Translations under genes and position numbers: made by a program
Source: Limimaricola cinnabarinus LL-001
GTDB lineage: Bacteria > Pseudomonadota > Alphaproteobacteria > Rhodobacterales > Rhodobacteraceae
Direction of reading: 5' to 3'
DNA length: 52,066 bases
NCBI RefSeq assembly: GCF_000466965.1
Contig: NZ_BATB01000017.1
Coordinates: forward strand, 1-52,066
The notes under the pieces: generated by a model
What the model was told of the DNA's origin: nothing
The model's input: only the letters and a program-made list of their open reading frames with translations
Databases searched by the model: none
Shown here: in pieces, positions 1,150 through 51,262 of the stretch
Layout of the letters: every line of letters begins with the position of its first letter
How positions within the stretch are numbered: the first letter of the stretch is position 1

Positions 1150-2190
1150 TTACTGCGCGGCGGGCACAGTTTCAGTCTCGGTTTCCATCTCGACGGCGTT
1201 GGCGTCCATCTCCTCGGCCGGTGCTTCGTATTCCGGCAGCGCCTTCAGCTCGTCTTCGGTCGCGCTGATATAGACGCGGATGTCCGAGCCGTCTTCGTTG
1301 GACAGGATCTGCAGATCCTCGAAGTTCACGGCAACCTTCTTTTCGCCGATTCCGAGGAAGCCGCCGACGCCGATCACGGCCTCGGTGATTTCGCCGCTGT
1401 CGGAAGCCACAAGGTCTTCGATGTCGCCGATATTCTCGTCATTGGCGCCATAGACGGTGGCGCCGTTGATCTCTTCGGTGCTCAGGTCGGTGACGGGGGT
1501 GGTGGTGTAGCCCTCGCGCTCGATCATGCCAGCGGTGGTCGCTGCTGGAGCGGTGGTTTCCAGCTCGGCTTCGCCCTCGGCCATCTCGGTCTCGACCTCG
1601 GTGGTCGTGGTCTCGCCGGCGGCCGGGACCGTGGCGGTATCGGTCGCCATTTCGGTCTCTTCACCCTCGGCCATGGTCGCGGTGGCAGCCGCGGTGGCGG
1701 CGGCACCGGTCTGCTCGACCATGCCTGGCTCGGCGGCTTCGCCATTGGTCATGGCGGTGTCTTCGACGGAGGCGCGCTCAAAGGCCGGAGCCGCTTCGAG
1801 AGCTTCCTGGCTGGAGTTGATCACGAGGAACCGCTCGCCGTTCTCGTCGTCATAGGTGCGGATCTGATCCATCGTGACGGCGACGTCCTTTTCGCCGATC
1901 CCAAGGAAGCCGCCAACGCCGACGATTACGGCCTGAACCGCGCCATCTTCGGAGATCACGAGGTCGTTAATCTCGCCGATATCATCCCATTCCTGTTCGG
2001 CGAAGTTGATCATATCGCCGTTGGAGCCCAGTTCCTGCTCGGAGGAATAAAGGCGCATGCCCATCAGGTTGGAGGCATAGAAGTCGTCAGCGGTGACTTC
2101 GTAGGCGCCCATGCCCATGCTATGGGATTCGGCGTAAGCGGTCGTGCCCATGACGAGCGCGGTCGCGGCTGAGGTGAGAAGAAGTTTCAT
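1150..2190 (-). CDS. Secreted protein with two PRC-barrel domains
   Basis: A 346-residue exported protein with a signal peptide (about 1-20, cleavage after AYA). PRC-barrel domains lie at about 30-125 and 230-312, each containing the same segment GVGGFLGIGEK. They are joined by an acidic Thr/Ala/Glu-rich linker (about 140-225), and the C-terminus is also rich in Glu and Thr. PRC-barrel domains form small beta-barrels in proteins such as RimM and the photosynthetic reaction centre H subunit. Secreted versions in this family have no established role. The ATG at 2190 was chosen because it starts the signal peptide; the frame is open further upstream. A hairpin follows the stop codon. A single-domain relative lies at 48332-48793. 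Confidence 0.85.
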   Translation of the reverse strand: MKLLLTSAATALVMGTTAYAESHSMGMGAYEVTADDFYASNLMGMRLYSSEQELGSNGDMINFAEQEWDDIGEINDLVISEDGAVQAVIVGVGGFLGIGEKDVAVTMDQIRTYDDENGERFLVINSSQEALEAAPAFERASVEDTAMTNGEAAEPGMVEQTGAAATAAATATMAEGEETEMATDTATVPAAGETTTTEVETEMAEGEAELETTAPAATTAGMIEREGYTTTPVTDLSTEEINGATVYGANDENIGDIEDLVASDSGEITEAVIGVGGFLGIGEKKVAVNFEDLQILSNEDGSDIRVYISATEDELKALPEYEAPAEEMDANAVEMETETETVPAAQ

Positions 2191-46223: not shown

Positions 46224-48238
46224 ATGACCAACCCCTTCTTGGAGACTTGGGACACGCCCTTCGGCCTGCCGCCCTTCGACCGTATCGCGGTTGGCGATTG
46301 GATGCCCGCTACCGAAGCGGCACTGGCCGAGGCCCGCGCCGCCGTCGAGACCATCGCCGCCAACCCCGAGGCGCCGAACTTCGACAACACCGTCGCGGCG
46401 CTCGAGATGTCGGACGAGGCGCTGGGCCGGGTGCTCTCGGCCTTTTATGCCGTGGCGAGCGCCGACAGCACGCCCGCGCTTCAGGCCCTGCAACGCGACT
46501 TCGCGCCGATGCTATCGGCACATATGTCGTGGGTGATCGGCAACCAAGCCCTGTTCGAGCGCATCGATGCGCTCTGGCAGACGCGCGAGACGCTCGATCT
46601 CGGCCCGGAGGAGGCGCGGGTGCTGATGCTGACGCATCGCCGCTTCGTGCGGGCGGGCGCGCAGCTCGAAGGGCAGGCGGCCGTGCGCATGGCCGAGATC
46701 CGCACGCGACTCTCGGTCTTGGGCACGCAATTCTCGCAGAACCTGCTGGCCGACGAATCCGCATGGACCATGCCGCTGTCGGAGGAGGAGCTCGCGAAGC
46801 TGCCCGCCGGGCTGCGCTCGGCCGCCAAGGCGGCGGGTGGGGACAAGGGCGCGGTGATCACCCTCTCGCGGTCGCTCGTGGTGCCGTTCCTGCAGTATTC
46901 GCCGAACCGCGAGCTGCGCAGAAGGGCCTTCGAGGCTTGGGGCGCGCGCGGCATGAATGGCGGCGAGACCGACAACCGGGCCATCGCCGCCGAAACCCTC
47001 AAGCTGCGCGAGGAGCGCGCGAAGCTCCTGGGCCATGATGACTATGCTTCGTGGAAGCTCGAGACCGAGATGGCGGGCAGCCCGCAGGCAGTGCGCGAGC
47101 TGCTGCATGCCGTCTGGACGCCCGCGCGCGCGGCCGCCGAAGCCGATGCCGCGATCTATGCCGACATGCTGCACGCCGATGGGCATGAGGGCCCGCTCGA
47201 GCCTTGGGATTGGCGCTACTATGCCGAGGGACGCCGCCGCGCCGAGCATGAGATCGATGACGGCACGCTCAAGCCCTATCTGCAGCTCGACCGGATGATC
47301 GAGGCGGCCTTTTCGGTGGCGCACCGCCTTTTTGGCATCGAGGCACGCGAGATCGAGGCCCCGGCCTATCACCCGGACGCCCGAACCTTCGAGATCACGC
47401 GGCGCGGCGAACACCTCGCCGTCTTTGTCGGCGACTGGTTCGCCCGGCCCTCCAAACGCTCGGGCGCTTGGTGCACAACGATGCGCGACCAGCATCGAAT
47501 GGCGGGGCGCGACGTGCGGCCCCTCGTGCTCAACGTCTGTAATTTTGCCAAGCCGGACGCAGGCGAGCCCGCGCTCTTGTCCTTCGACGATGCGCGCACG
47601 TTGTTTCACGAGTTCGGCCATGCGCTGCACCAAATGCTCTCGGACGTGACCTATGAGAGCATCTCGGCACCTCGGTCGCGCGCGATTTCGTGGAGCTGCC
47701 GAGCCAGCTCTTCGAACACTGGCTCGAAGTGCCCGAAGTGCTGCGCGAGTTCGCCACCCATGCCGAGACCGGTGAGCCGATGCCCGAGGCGCTGATGGAC
47801 AGGATGCTGGCCGCCGCCAATTTCGATCAGGGCTTCGCCACGGTCGAGCAGACCGCTTCGGCCATCGTCGATCTGGAATTCCACTGCGGCACAGCACCCG
47901 CCGATCCGATGCAGCGGCAGGCCGAGGTGCTGGAAGAGATCGGCATGCCGCGCGCCATCGCCATGCGCCATGCGACACCGCATTTCGCGCATGTCTTCTC
48001 GGGCGACGGCTACGCGGCGGGCTATTACAGCTACCTGTGGTCCGAGATGATGGATGCCGACGCCTTCGAGGCGTTCCGAGAGACCGGCGACGCGTTCGAC
48101 CCCGAGACCGCCGCCCGGTTGGAAGAACATGTGCTGTCGCGGGGCGGCTCGGAAGAGGCGGGCGTGCTCTATGAGCGGTTCCGCGGCTCGACGCCGGATG
48201 TCGCGGCGCTGCTCAGGGGGCGGGGACTCGCCGCCTGA
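46224..48238 (+). CDS. M3 family oligopeptidase, frameshifted in this sequence
   Basis: 671 residues once repaired. It begins MTNPFLETWDTPFGLPPF after the ribosome-binding site AAAGGAG. It has the zinc motif HEFGH (47607-47621, residues 462-466) and the C-terminal region HAETGEPMPEAL and GYYSYLWSEMMDADAF. It is an oligopeptidase A/dipeptidyl carboxypeptidase-type cytoplasmic peptidase. The frame breaks at about 47666, just after the zinc site: ATCTCGGCACC is read where ATCTCGGGCACC is expected. One added G joins SIS-GTS to ARDFVELPSQLFEHW. A sequence error is likely. Confidence 0.9.
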
Positions 48239-48269: not shown

Positions 48270-48294
48270 GGAACTTTGGCTGGACGGGCCCGTT
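48270..48294 (+). promoter_or_regulatory. EcfG-type promoter before the PRC-barrel gene
   Basis: GGAAC (48270-48274), a 16-base spacer, then CGTT (48291-48294). This is an exact match to the alphaproteobacterial general stress sigma (EcfG) consensus GGAAC-N16/17-CGTT, 38 bases upstream of the ATG at 48332. Confidence 0.6.
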
Positions 48295-48331
48295 GGTGAG
48301 GCAACATCGAATGATGAGAAGGAACACGAAG

Positions 48332-48793
48332 ATGAAACTGCTTACTGCAAGCGCTCTCGCTCTCAGCATCGGCGCCACCGGTGCCTTGGCCGAAACCCAT
48401 GCCATGACCGATTTCTCGACCATGACGAGCGCCGACATGGCTGGCATGCAGGGCGAACTCATTCGCACCCGCGACATCACCGGCGGTGCGATCTACACCA
48501 CCAACGAGGCCGACGACGAAGGCTGGGACACGGTCGGCACCTATGACGCGCTTGGTCCGGACTGGAACGAGATCGGCGAGATCGAAGACGTGATCCTGTC
48601 GCGCGACGGCCAGATGATCGGCGTCGTGGCCGAAGTCGGCGGCTTTCTCGACATTGCTGACAAGCATGTGATGCTGGCCACCGGCGACGTGCGGCTCGTT
48701 GCTGTCGATGATCGCAGCTATGCCATCGTCACGCGCATGAACGAAGAGCAGCTCGAACAGCTTGAAGGCGTCGATGAAGGCTTCTGGGACTGA
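48332..48793 (+). CDS. Secreted single PRC-barrel domain protein
   Basis: 153 residues with a signal peptide (KLLTASALALSIGATGALAE). One PRC-barrel domain contains NEIGEIEDVILSRDGQMIGVV and EVGGFLDIADKHVML, related to the two domains of the protein at 1150-2190. The ATG at 48332 begins the signal peptide and has AGAAGGA upstream. A GGAAC-N16-CGTT promoter precedes it and a strong terminator follows. It is probably stress-induced; its molecular role is unknown. Confidence 0.85.
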   Translation: MKLLTASALALSIGATGALAETHAMTDFSTMTSADMAGMQGELIRTRDITGGAIYTTNEADDEGWDTVGTYDALGPDWNEIGEIEDVILSRDGQMIGVVAEVGGFLDIADKHVMLATGDVRLVAVDDRSYAIVTRMNEEQLEQLEGVDEGFWD

Positions 48794-48822
48794 TCTCTTC
48801 ACGGATCGTCTAGTTCATGGAC

Positions 48823-48859
48823 AAGGGGGCGCGGATCACCGCGCCCCCTTGGTTGTTTT
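48823..48859 (+). terminator. Rho-independent terminator after the PRC-barrel gene
   Basis: AAGGGGGCGCGG (48823-48834) pairs perfectly with CCGCGCCCCCTT (48839-48850) around ATCA, followed by GGTTGTTTT. The stem is symmetrical, so it may also serve the opposing 83-residue gene, whose stop is at 48878. Confidence 0.85.
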
Positions 48860-48877
48860 CCGCGAAGCTTATCCTGT

Positions 48878-49129
48878 TCAGGTCGCCTTGCGATGGGCCT
48901 CGGCGGCTTCGGAGATGTGGTGCATCTCGTCGGCGAGAGCGCCCTCGATCGACAGGCCTTCGCCAGGGACGGCTCCGGGGTCTTCCTCGTGGCCGCTCAT
49001 GTGGCTGCGGTCGCGGACATATTCGCGCAGGTCGTCGCCCGCCGGGCCTTCGAGGGTGGCCACCAGACGGGCGAGCACCTTGCGCTGGGCCAGAAGGCGG
49101 CCTTCGAGGGTTTCGATCGTCACGGTCAT
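48878..49129 (-). CDS. Small acidic protein of unknown function
   Basis: 83 residues, charged and probably helical: IETLEGRLLAQRKVLARLVATLEG in the first part, a polar middle with HMSGHEEDPGAVPGEG and ALADEMHHISEAAEAH at the end. No signal peptide or membrane segment. It is preceded on its own strand by GGAAC-N17-CGTT and is divergent from the 95-residue gene, which has the same type of promoter. It is probably a general-stress protein. No family was recognised. Confidence 0.65.
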   Translation of the reverse strand: MTVTIETLEGRLLAQRKVLARLVATLEGPAGDDLREYVRDRSHMSGHEEDPGAVPGEGLSIEGALADEMHHISEAAEAHRKAT

Positions 49130-49179
49130 GGGGCGGCCTCCGGGCGTGGGTCAATGGGCAGGGTTATCTGTGAGGGGCC

Positions 49180-49205
49180 AACGTCGCTTGCCCCCGCGCT
49201 GTTCC
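49180..49205 (-). promoter_or_regulatory. EcfG-type promoter of the 83-residue gene
   Basis: On the minus strand: GGAAC (49205-49201), a 17-base spacer, CGTT (49183-49180), about 50 bases before the ATG at 49129. This is an exact consensus match. Confidence 0.55.
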
Positions 49206-49244
49206 CCCGGCACCGCTGCGCCAGCGTCTGCAAACGCACGGGGC

Positions 49245-49270
49245 GGAACGGAGCCGCCGAGCCGCACGTT
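49245..49270 (+). promoter_or_regulatory. EcfG-type promoter of the 95-residue gene
   Basis: GGAAC (49245-49249), a 17-base spacer, CGTT (49267-49270), 39 bases before the ATG at 49310. This is an exact consensus match. It lies 40 bases from the opposing minus-strand site. Confidence 0.55.
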
Positions 49271-49309
49271 CCGATTTCGAGACCTGAAACACAGCTTGGG
49301 ACCATTATC

Positions 49310-49596
49310 ATGAGACATCGACAGAGCCGCGGGCCGGGTGCCCTGACGACGCTGGCGCTCCTTGGCGGTGCGCTCTGGCTGGCCCGCCGTTATCGCCACG
49401 AGATGCGAGACGCAGTGCAGGCGGGCATGGATCGCATGCAGCCGCAGGCGCGCTCGGGCGCAGCTTCGCGCATGATGACGGCCCGGTGCGGCAGGCCGGA
49501 CGCGAAGAAATGCGGGACCCGCCCCGCCGCTGGGACCTGCAGGACGAGACCGTGGACGAGAGCTTTCCCGCCTCGGACCCGCCTTCGAGCTACTGA
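49310..49596 (+). CDS. Small membrane-associated protein with DESFPASDPPS tail, frameshifted in this sequence
   Basis: 95 residues once repaired. The N-terminal part has a hydrophobic stretch (LTTLALLGGALWLARRY) and an amphipathic region. The C-terminal part, in another frame, ends WDLQDETVDESFPASDPPSSY, a tail motif found in many small proteobacterial proteins. The frames switch at about 49463, where GCGCAGCTTCGC is read and GCGCAGGCTTCGC is expected. A GGAAC-N17-CGTT promoter lies 39 bases upstream of the start. The function is unknown. The 3' end overlaps the opposing CDF gene by 7 bases. Confidence 0.7.
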
Positions 49597-51133: not shown

Positions 51134-51262
51134 CCGAGCTGTGTCCGTCCGGTCTCGATGCCATGCCCATGGGGTACGCGAGGGGCGCGTTCTTGCGTCG
51201 CGCGCCCGGTCCCGGCACTCTGTCACGATGCCATGGCGGGGAAAAGCGCAAGGGAGTGCGGT

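Follow-up and report, generated by a model that had tools for sequence, protein, structure and literature searches.

Introduction

The PhyR–NepR–EcfG pathway is established in other alphaproteobacteria, and its operation in the genome studied here is inferred. The closest described systems are EcfG regulons of Sphingomonas and Sphingopyxis, the RpoE2 target SMb20522 of Sinorhizobium meliloti and the PhyR–NepR–EcfG locus of Rhodobacter sphaeroides, and the reports cited below are used as far as their available text extends. In Sphingopyxis granuli, GGAAC-N16-CGTT was given as the conventional EcfG promoter, of which the −35 element was conserved and the −10 element was flexible (PMC7083833). 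In Sphingomonas melonis, a PRC-barrel gene was among the top EcfG-regulated genes and carried GGAAC...GGTT 27 nt upstream (PMC6599016). The PRC-barrel gene SMb20522 of Sinorhizobium meliloti was activated by RpoE2 and, less strongly, by RpoE6, and its GGAAC-N16-CGTT promoter was mapped by 5'-RACE (PMC6180224). PhyR of R. sphaeroides had no major general-stress role; it was important under membrane stress, whereas its effect under oxidative, heat or osmotic stress was not significant, and according to the available text no other member of Rhodobacterales had previously been analyzed for the role of its PhyR (PMC5830050). The phyR gene and an ecfG-like gene of R. capsulatus were tested for gene-transfer-agent production (PMC3999984). 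In the literature searched, which was mostly without subscription papers, none of the papers listed for Rhodobacterales, Rhodobacteraceae, Roseobacter, Rhodobacter (10 of 18) or Limimaricola had a title that dealt with an EcfG regulon of a marine member of the group.

The locus described here lies in the window, i.e., the whole 52,066-base stretch of DNA that was analyzed, which is contig C176 of a 192-contig, 3.9 Mb assembly and stops at the contig end (52,066). Its motifs resemble the promoters of EcfG of S. melonis Fr1 (PMC6599016) and of EcfG1/2 of S. granuli (PMC7083833) in the GGAAC −35 and the CGTT-type −10 elements. The S. melonis Fr1 regulon is also alike in that its motifs lie mostly less than 100 nt from the start and its targets include a PRC-barrel gene and topoisomerase IB (PMC6599016). 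However, the Sphingomonas and Sphingopyxis regulons, as far as they are described in these texts, belong to another order, and the regulon here is a predicted one. SMb20522, activated by the general stress sigma factor, shares with the locus a PRC-barrel domain and a GGAAC-N16-CGTT promoter (PMC6180224). The PhyR–NepR–EcfG locus of R. sphaeroides comes from the same order and is similarly arranged, with the sigma factor and NepR-like genes opposite phyR, but it differs in the lack of a major general-stress role for PhyR, and the available text of that paper gives no GGAAC promoter set (PMC5830050). A described counterpart of the 83- or the 95-residue gene was not found in the available text of the EcfG literature searched.

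Results

Positions of the Promoter Motifs

Both strands of the window were scanned with the pattern GGAACN15-18CGTT. Four matches were found, all inside 48,270–49,272, and no further exact motif was present elsewhere in the 52,066 bases. The original prediction had placed exact motifs 38, about 50 and 39 bases before three neighboring starts; this was borne out, with distances from the CGTT end to the start codon of 37, 50 and 39 nt, respectively. The putative EcfG-type promoter of the PRC-barrel gene (start 48332) is an exact GGAAC-N16-CGTT at 48270..48294 on the plus strand. That of the 83-residue gene (start 49129, minus strand) is an exact GGAAC-N17-CGTT at 49180..49205 on the minus strand, and that of the 95-residue gene (start 49310) is an exact plus-strand match with an N17 spacer at 49245..49270, divergent from the 49180 site. 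The GGAAC boxes of this back-to-back pair are separated by 39 bases, close to the 40 that had been claimed. The fourth match (49247..49272, minus strand, exact, N17) merely repeats the 49245 site on the opposite strand, as an echo that arises from the near-palindromic letters of that site. It is probably not a separate promoter, and no minus-strand echo was present in the three sister loci that carry the plus site. The statement that the window held no other exact match suitably placed before a gene was correct, although it had left the echo unmentioned.

Three such motifs in 1 kb had been judged improbable by chance, and the simulations agreed. When 61 sites were placed at random on 3.9 Mb, three fell within 1,003 bp in 0.75% of 20,000 trials. 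Dinucleotide shuffles of the window gave a mean of 1.01 matches, and at least four matches were reached in 1 of 100 shuffles.

Genome-Wide Placement of the Motif

The genome-wide motif scan proposed with the original prediction gave a divided result, as the total was no higher than that of the control, whereas the excess before starts was strong. The genome held 62 motif sites and 64 sites of the reversed pattern. Without an excess, the total count was dropped as evidence, and position and conservation were used instead. The placement test was run with a home-made gene caller and 63 control sites, since one control sequence was present twice. Forty of the 62 motif sites lay outside called genes versus 13 of the 63 control sites (Fisher P = 7.6e-7); moreover, sites that were intergenic and had a same-strand start within 150 nt numbered 30/62 versus 4/63 (Fisher P = 6.9e-8). 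In place of the PRC gene, the caller picked a false ORF on the minus strand, and the frameshifted gene described below was invisible to it; the 30 sites lack the PRC and 95-residue promoters and wrongly include the echo at 49247, and a count by hand would give 31.

A Pfam scan was made of 30 products downstream of sites, which are not exactly the same 30 as in the placement count, because the site lies inside a called gene for L125 and L143 and the start is 159 nt away for L137. The names obtained were ferritin-like (Dps-type, a name given by us), DJ-1/PfpI (L146 and also L125), pyridoxamine-oxidase-like, short-chain dehydrogenase, CBM48 (the N-terminus of glycogen enzymes), topoisomerase IB, PAP2, BrkB, OmpA with a glycine zipper, DUF998, AI-2E transporter, DUF533 (L143), haloacid dehalogenase, TUDOR-like, DUF3008, MgtC, TerC, DUF302 and CreA. 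In addition, an S30AE ribosome-hibernation domain and a cold-shock domain were combined in one 194-residue protein (L129:386-970), 30 nt after a motif. Four of the 30 products (L138, L156, L157 and L158) had no Pfam match at 0.001. As a separate observation, contig C184 carried six motif sites within 33 kb (G000:C184:43082-76297), five of them before starts (e.g., those of PAP2, short-chain dehydrogenase and CBM48 proteins), which is possibly a larger stress cluster.

Regulator Genes and Sigma Factors

An EcfG-type sigma factor, the absence of which had been named as the observation that would count against the prediction, was found in the genome together with NepR and a PhyR-family protein. 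NepR gave a single match (PF18557, 44.9 bits, above the cut-off), an ECF sigma gene lies directly downstream of nepR, and phyR is divergent. The PhyR-family protein matched NCBIfam NF006623 with 365 bits against a cut-off of 240, with a query translation that carried two codons too many at its start. The sigma factor beside NepR matched an NCBIfam equivalog model (335 against a cut-off of 270) that does not itself name EcfG; the protein was named EcfG because of its place beside NepR and PhyR. Furthermore, a motif ends 37 nt upstream of the likely phyR start (L001:1750).

Ten sigma-region-4 matches were found in the assembly, which is 94.8% complete. One is EcfG, one is PhyR, and one (L006, contig C183) is another ECF sigma factor, with NF009167 above its cut-off. 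The best matches of L004, L007, L009 and L011 were below the cut-off and to non-sigma regulators, and no family was matched by L008 at the threshold applied; L005 and L010 lay outside this family scan. A NepR match was present in 47 of the 48 genomes searched (the genome of L073 was left out), and the co-occurrence of regulator and motif is thus uninformative. The sole genome of the 48 without a NepR match, G174, has a PRC gene (L067) with GGAAC-N16-GGTT, and incompleteness of that genome is a possible cause of the missing match.

PRC-Barrel Gene

The PRC-barrel gene (48332..48793, plus strand) encodes a protein of 153 residues with, as judged by eye, an apparent Sec signal peptide. The protein narrowly passed the cut-off of Pfam PF05239 (22.9 bits, cut-off 21.2), and a profile comparison matched it weakly (E 0.005) to 3htr, a PRC-barrel of solved structure. 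Its structure model was of low confidence (mean pLDDT 63.3), and the top fold matches of the model were PRC-barrel proteins (e.g., 3htr and reaction-centre H subunits), none of them with E <= 0.001. Matches to the protein at E <= 0.001 occurred in 51 of 149 family genomes (own included), many of them weak. Its matches in Limimaricola were those of Limimaricola litoreus (94% identity), L. cinnabarinus (92%), L. hongkongensis and L. soesokkakensis (both 84%) and Limimaricola sp. G21655-S1 (83%). A Limimaricola-like genome of the Rhodobacteraceae is therefore the most likely origin of the window.

The N16 or N17 motif was counted in the 150 nt upstream of 49 PRC relatives; another 30 PRC loci from the family-genome search had been scanned without orientation and were excluded from the promoter counts. 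An exact motif preceded 21 of the 49 genes, and 48 of the 49 had the motif with at most one mismatch, the exception being L068. By comparison, 120 scrambled motifs drawn from 359 gave means of 0.08 exact matches and 1.91 at <=1 mismatch (largest values 1 and 27), and the wrong strand gave 0/49 and 2/49, respectively. After removal of near-identical upstreams, beyond which relatedness is disregarded in all these conservation counts, the values were 18/39 exact and 38/39 at <=1 mismatch. In the 27 one-mismatch promoters, the best-listed site retained GGAAC and the change fell in the −10 element, which agrees with the conserved −35 and flexible −10 elements described for S. granuli in the available text (PMC7083833). 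Loci from Aurantimonas and Devosia are among those with the motif; hence, the promoter is not confined to Rhodobacteraceae. Among the other PRC genes of the genome, one on C153 has GGAAC-N16-GGTT upstream, one on C189 follows a different reading frame, which itself carries an exact motif, and one in the window (1237-2181, minus strand) had no motif in the stretch scanned.

83-Residue Gene

The 83-residue gene (48878..49129, minus strand) encodes a protein that was helical in its structure model and matched no named family in Pfam, NCBIfam or the PDB. The mean pLDDT was 86.8, with helices at residues 5-25, 28-41 and 57-82. The protein had no match in Pfam or NCBIfam, and the best matches in the PDB had E values of 0.42 by sequence and 2.1 by fold. 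It was present in 12 of 149 genomes (own included), and an invariant EGR...QRK stretch ran through 16 aligned copies. The exact motif preceded 10 of 17 copies of the gene, with the copy in the window counted (scramble mean 0.03), and the other seven had no motif even when one mismatch was allowed. The wrong-strand control gave 4/17 exact matches and 6/17 at <=1 mismatch, which are probably the divergent promoter of the neighboring gene.

95-Residue Gene and Its C-Terminal Tail

The gene for the 95-residue protein (49310..49596, plus strand) has one hydrophobic stretch, as seen by eye, and a DESFPASDPP C-terminal tail. The DESFPASDPPS tail that had been assigned to the gene starting at 49310 is there, but in another frame. 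The span from the ATG at 49310 to the TGA that ends the tail is 287 nt, which is not a multiple of three, and the frame read from 49310 does not yield the tail. In L. cinnabarinus (L043), the gene is intact, with 95 codons. Taken together, the span, the out-of-frame tail and the intact copy indicate a frameshift near position 49459 of the gene as assembled here. A gene for an M3-type peptidase (46224-48238) is split over two frames near 47660-47690 and appears to be frameshifted too. The two frameshifts suggest assembly or sequencing errors. A comparison with DUF6890 gave 20.1 bits for the frame in the window and 17.1 for the L043 protein, below the cut-off of 23.6.

A degenerate DNA pattern for ESFPASDPP matched 9 of 149 genomes of the family and 28 of 385 genomes of the class (own included in both), and the reversed tail pattern had no match among the matches listed. 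Many of the tail proteins were small, had a single hydrophobic stretch and followed the order MRDPPR-WD-DE-DESFPASDPP. The FPASDPP tail also occurred on unrelated proteins, namely, OsmC-like (one tested) and respiratory-complex-subunit-like proteins (L277, L278, L266 and L273), the latter named by eye, and tiny soluble proteins. Thirty-eight tail loci were obtained (9 from family genomes and 29 new ones from class genomes), and six further tail matches had no locus. Motifs were counted at 36 of the loci; L252 is the window itself, and the match of L258 lies 182 codons from a stop, and both were left out.

The motif was exact before 4 of 17 membrane-type tail proteins (scramble mean 0.04) and present with at most one mismatch before 14 of 17 (mean 1.4, largest 7), and the wrong strand gave 0/17 and 1/17. 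For the other tail proteins, the exact motif was found in 2/19 (scramble mean 0.08; 1/120 scrambles reached 2) and the motif at <=1 mismatch in 3/19 (mean 1.5; 25/120 reached 3). The division into membrane-type and other proteins was made by eye after the motifs had been seen, and the fair total is 17/36 at <=1 mismatch. In this general form, the idea that the tail by itself marks EcfG control was unsupported and was rejected. The string FPASDPP was found in no paper of the literature searched. We tentatively suggest, as a possibility clearly below an even chance, that the tail marks an undescribed family of small one-helix membrane proteins ending in about MRDPPR-WD-VDE-DESFPASDPP-Y and switched on by EcfG across Alphaproteobacteria, and that FPASDPP, as it also ends unrelated proteins, might serve as a portable docking or sorting tag in stressed cells.

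Sister Limimaricola Loci

Five Limimaricola loci (L042-L046; four named species and one further), all found via the PRC gene, were compared with the window. The PRC promoter and the 83-residue promoter were both exact in all five, while the spacer letters varied and one PRC spacer was 17 instead of 16 bases long. The 95-residue gene and its exact promoter were both present in three of the five (L043, L045 and L046, of which L045 and L046 are close relatives). In L042 and L044, gene and promoter were both gone from the locus, and the 83-residue gene adjoined a cation-efflux gene. This joint presence or absence is expected of a gene with its own promoter.

The three-gene cluster was local, and it was seen only in Limimaricola among the 49 PRC loci. 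In tblastn searches of the flanks of these loci, the 83-residue protein was matched in five and the 95-residue protein in three, all Limimaricola; the fetched flanks of the other 44 contained no match to either. G107 is a further genome of the genus; its best match to the PRC protein was only 40% identical and it lacked the tail pattern, but its 83-residue gene had an exact motif 37 nt upstream.

Beside the cluster, a fourth motif, also exact, was observed in all five sister loci (L042:8619, L043:8921, L044:7607, L045:8843 and L046:8843), where 34-36 nt separate it from a gene that encodes a hydrophobic protein (MRNWAI..., about 67 residues). In four of the loci, it lies about 200 bases beyond the point that matches the end of the window; the alignment of L044 stops earlier, at window position 51254. 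The 67-residue gene was not found in this genome, where the contig ends at 52,066, before the matching position.

Discussion

We regard it as highly likely, on the evidence of the DNA, that the general stress sigma factor EcfG (ECF15) uses the three motifs as its promoters. This reading is favored because the regulators are present, the motif precedes phyR, the sites are enriched before starts, the downstream genes include stress genes, the motifs are conserved, and PRC-barrel genes are known EcfG targets. The motifs, with their placement and conservation, and the PhyR–NepR–EcfG genes were seen directly as sequence features; transcription of the three genes and its dependence on EcfG are what these features would predict. 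Under stress, PhyR would be phosphorylated and would bind NepR, which would then release EcfG. RNA polymerase with EcfG would start transcription a few bases after CGTT. Three transcripts would be switched on at once, for the PRC-barrel protein (plus strand), the 83-residue protein (minus strand) and the 95-residue protein (plus strand), the last two from the back-to-back pair. The predicted products are a PRC-barrel protein in the periplasm, a small cytoplasmic protein of three helices, and a one-helix protein of the inner membrane whose conserved tail is acidic and contains proline. Their role can be guessed at as the protection or remodeling of the envelope under stress.

The idea of a small stress island of uncharacterized proteins is supported as far as EcfG control is concerned; however, PRC-barrel genes were already known as targets of EcfG or RpoE2, and the word uncharacterized applies to the other two proteins alone. 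Several observations temper the EcfG reading: the motif total showed no excess, 7 of the 17 copies of the 83-residue gene had no motif, the cluster was found only in Limimaricola, and G107 has a PRC match of only 40% identity and no tail pattern, although its 83-residue gene has an exact motif. In addition, PhyR had no major general-stress role in R. sphaeroides in the available text, and the output of the pathway may thus differ in Rhodobacterales (PMC5830050).

Some alternatives were weighed. A narrower response, specialized for stress at the membrane or envelope like the one suggested for PhyR of R. sphaeroides, would be compatible with EcfG control. It would fit the importance of R. sphaeroides PhyR for membrane stress in the available text (PMC5830050), and, as judged by eye, two of the three proteins resemble envelope or membrane proteins, as does the product of the fourth gene in the sister species. 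Nevertheless, the predicted regulon also holds ferritin-like (Dps-type), ribosome-hibernation and DJ-1/PfpI genes, and we consider a response restricted in this way unlikely, at roughly one chance in a few.

It is very improbable that, instead of EcfG, a different ECF sigma factor whose −35 box is of the GGAAC type recognizes the motifs. One other ECF sigma factor (L006 on C183) is among the region-4 matches, a further ECF gene may be missing from an assembly of 94.8% completeness, and overlap between ECF groups is documented, as SMb20522 of S. meliloti answers to RpoE2 and, less, to RpoE6 in the available text (PMC6180224). However, the motif also precedes phyR and the ferritin-like (Dps-type), DJ-1/PfpI and topoisomerase IB genes, among others, and its letters fit the EcfG consensus GGAAC-N16-CGTT given for S. 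granuli in the text available (PMC7083833). Moreover, apart from EcfG, L006 is the only one of the ten region-4 matches that could be identified as an ECF sigma factor, in a scan that covered all but L005 and L010. Chance occurrence of nine fixed letters without function in a GC-rich genome would agree with a total no higher than the reversed control, but is scarcely credible in view of the strong positional excess and of boxes that are both conserved while the spacers drift; for the PRC and 83-residue promoters, this conservation is a strong argument against chance.

On the preferred reading, that of EcfG promoters, the three genes are very probably members of a stress regulon of a type already known. 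The mechanism is known and well supported, and the group has been little examined for such a regulon. The locus offers clean tests for the uncharacterized 83- and 95-residue proteins. The tail family is a concrete lead, and the greatest novelty lies with the membrane proteins that end in the DESFPASDPP tail. The PhyR pathway of Rhodobacterales has so far looked atypical in the available texts. With a coherent set of EcfG-type promoters upstream of typical stress genes, and a PRC promoter that is conserved in many relatives, it becomes directly testable whether marine Rhodobacteraceae have a general stress response of the classical kind.
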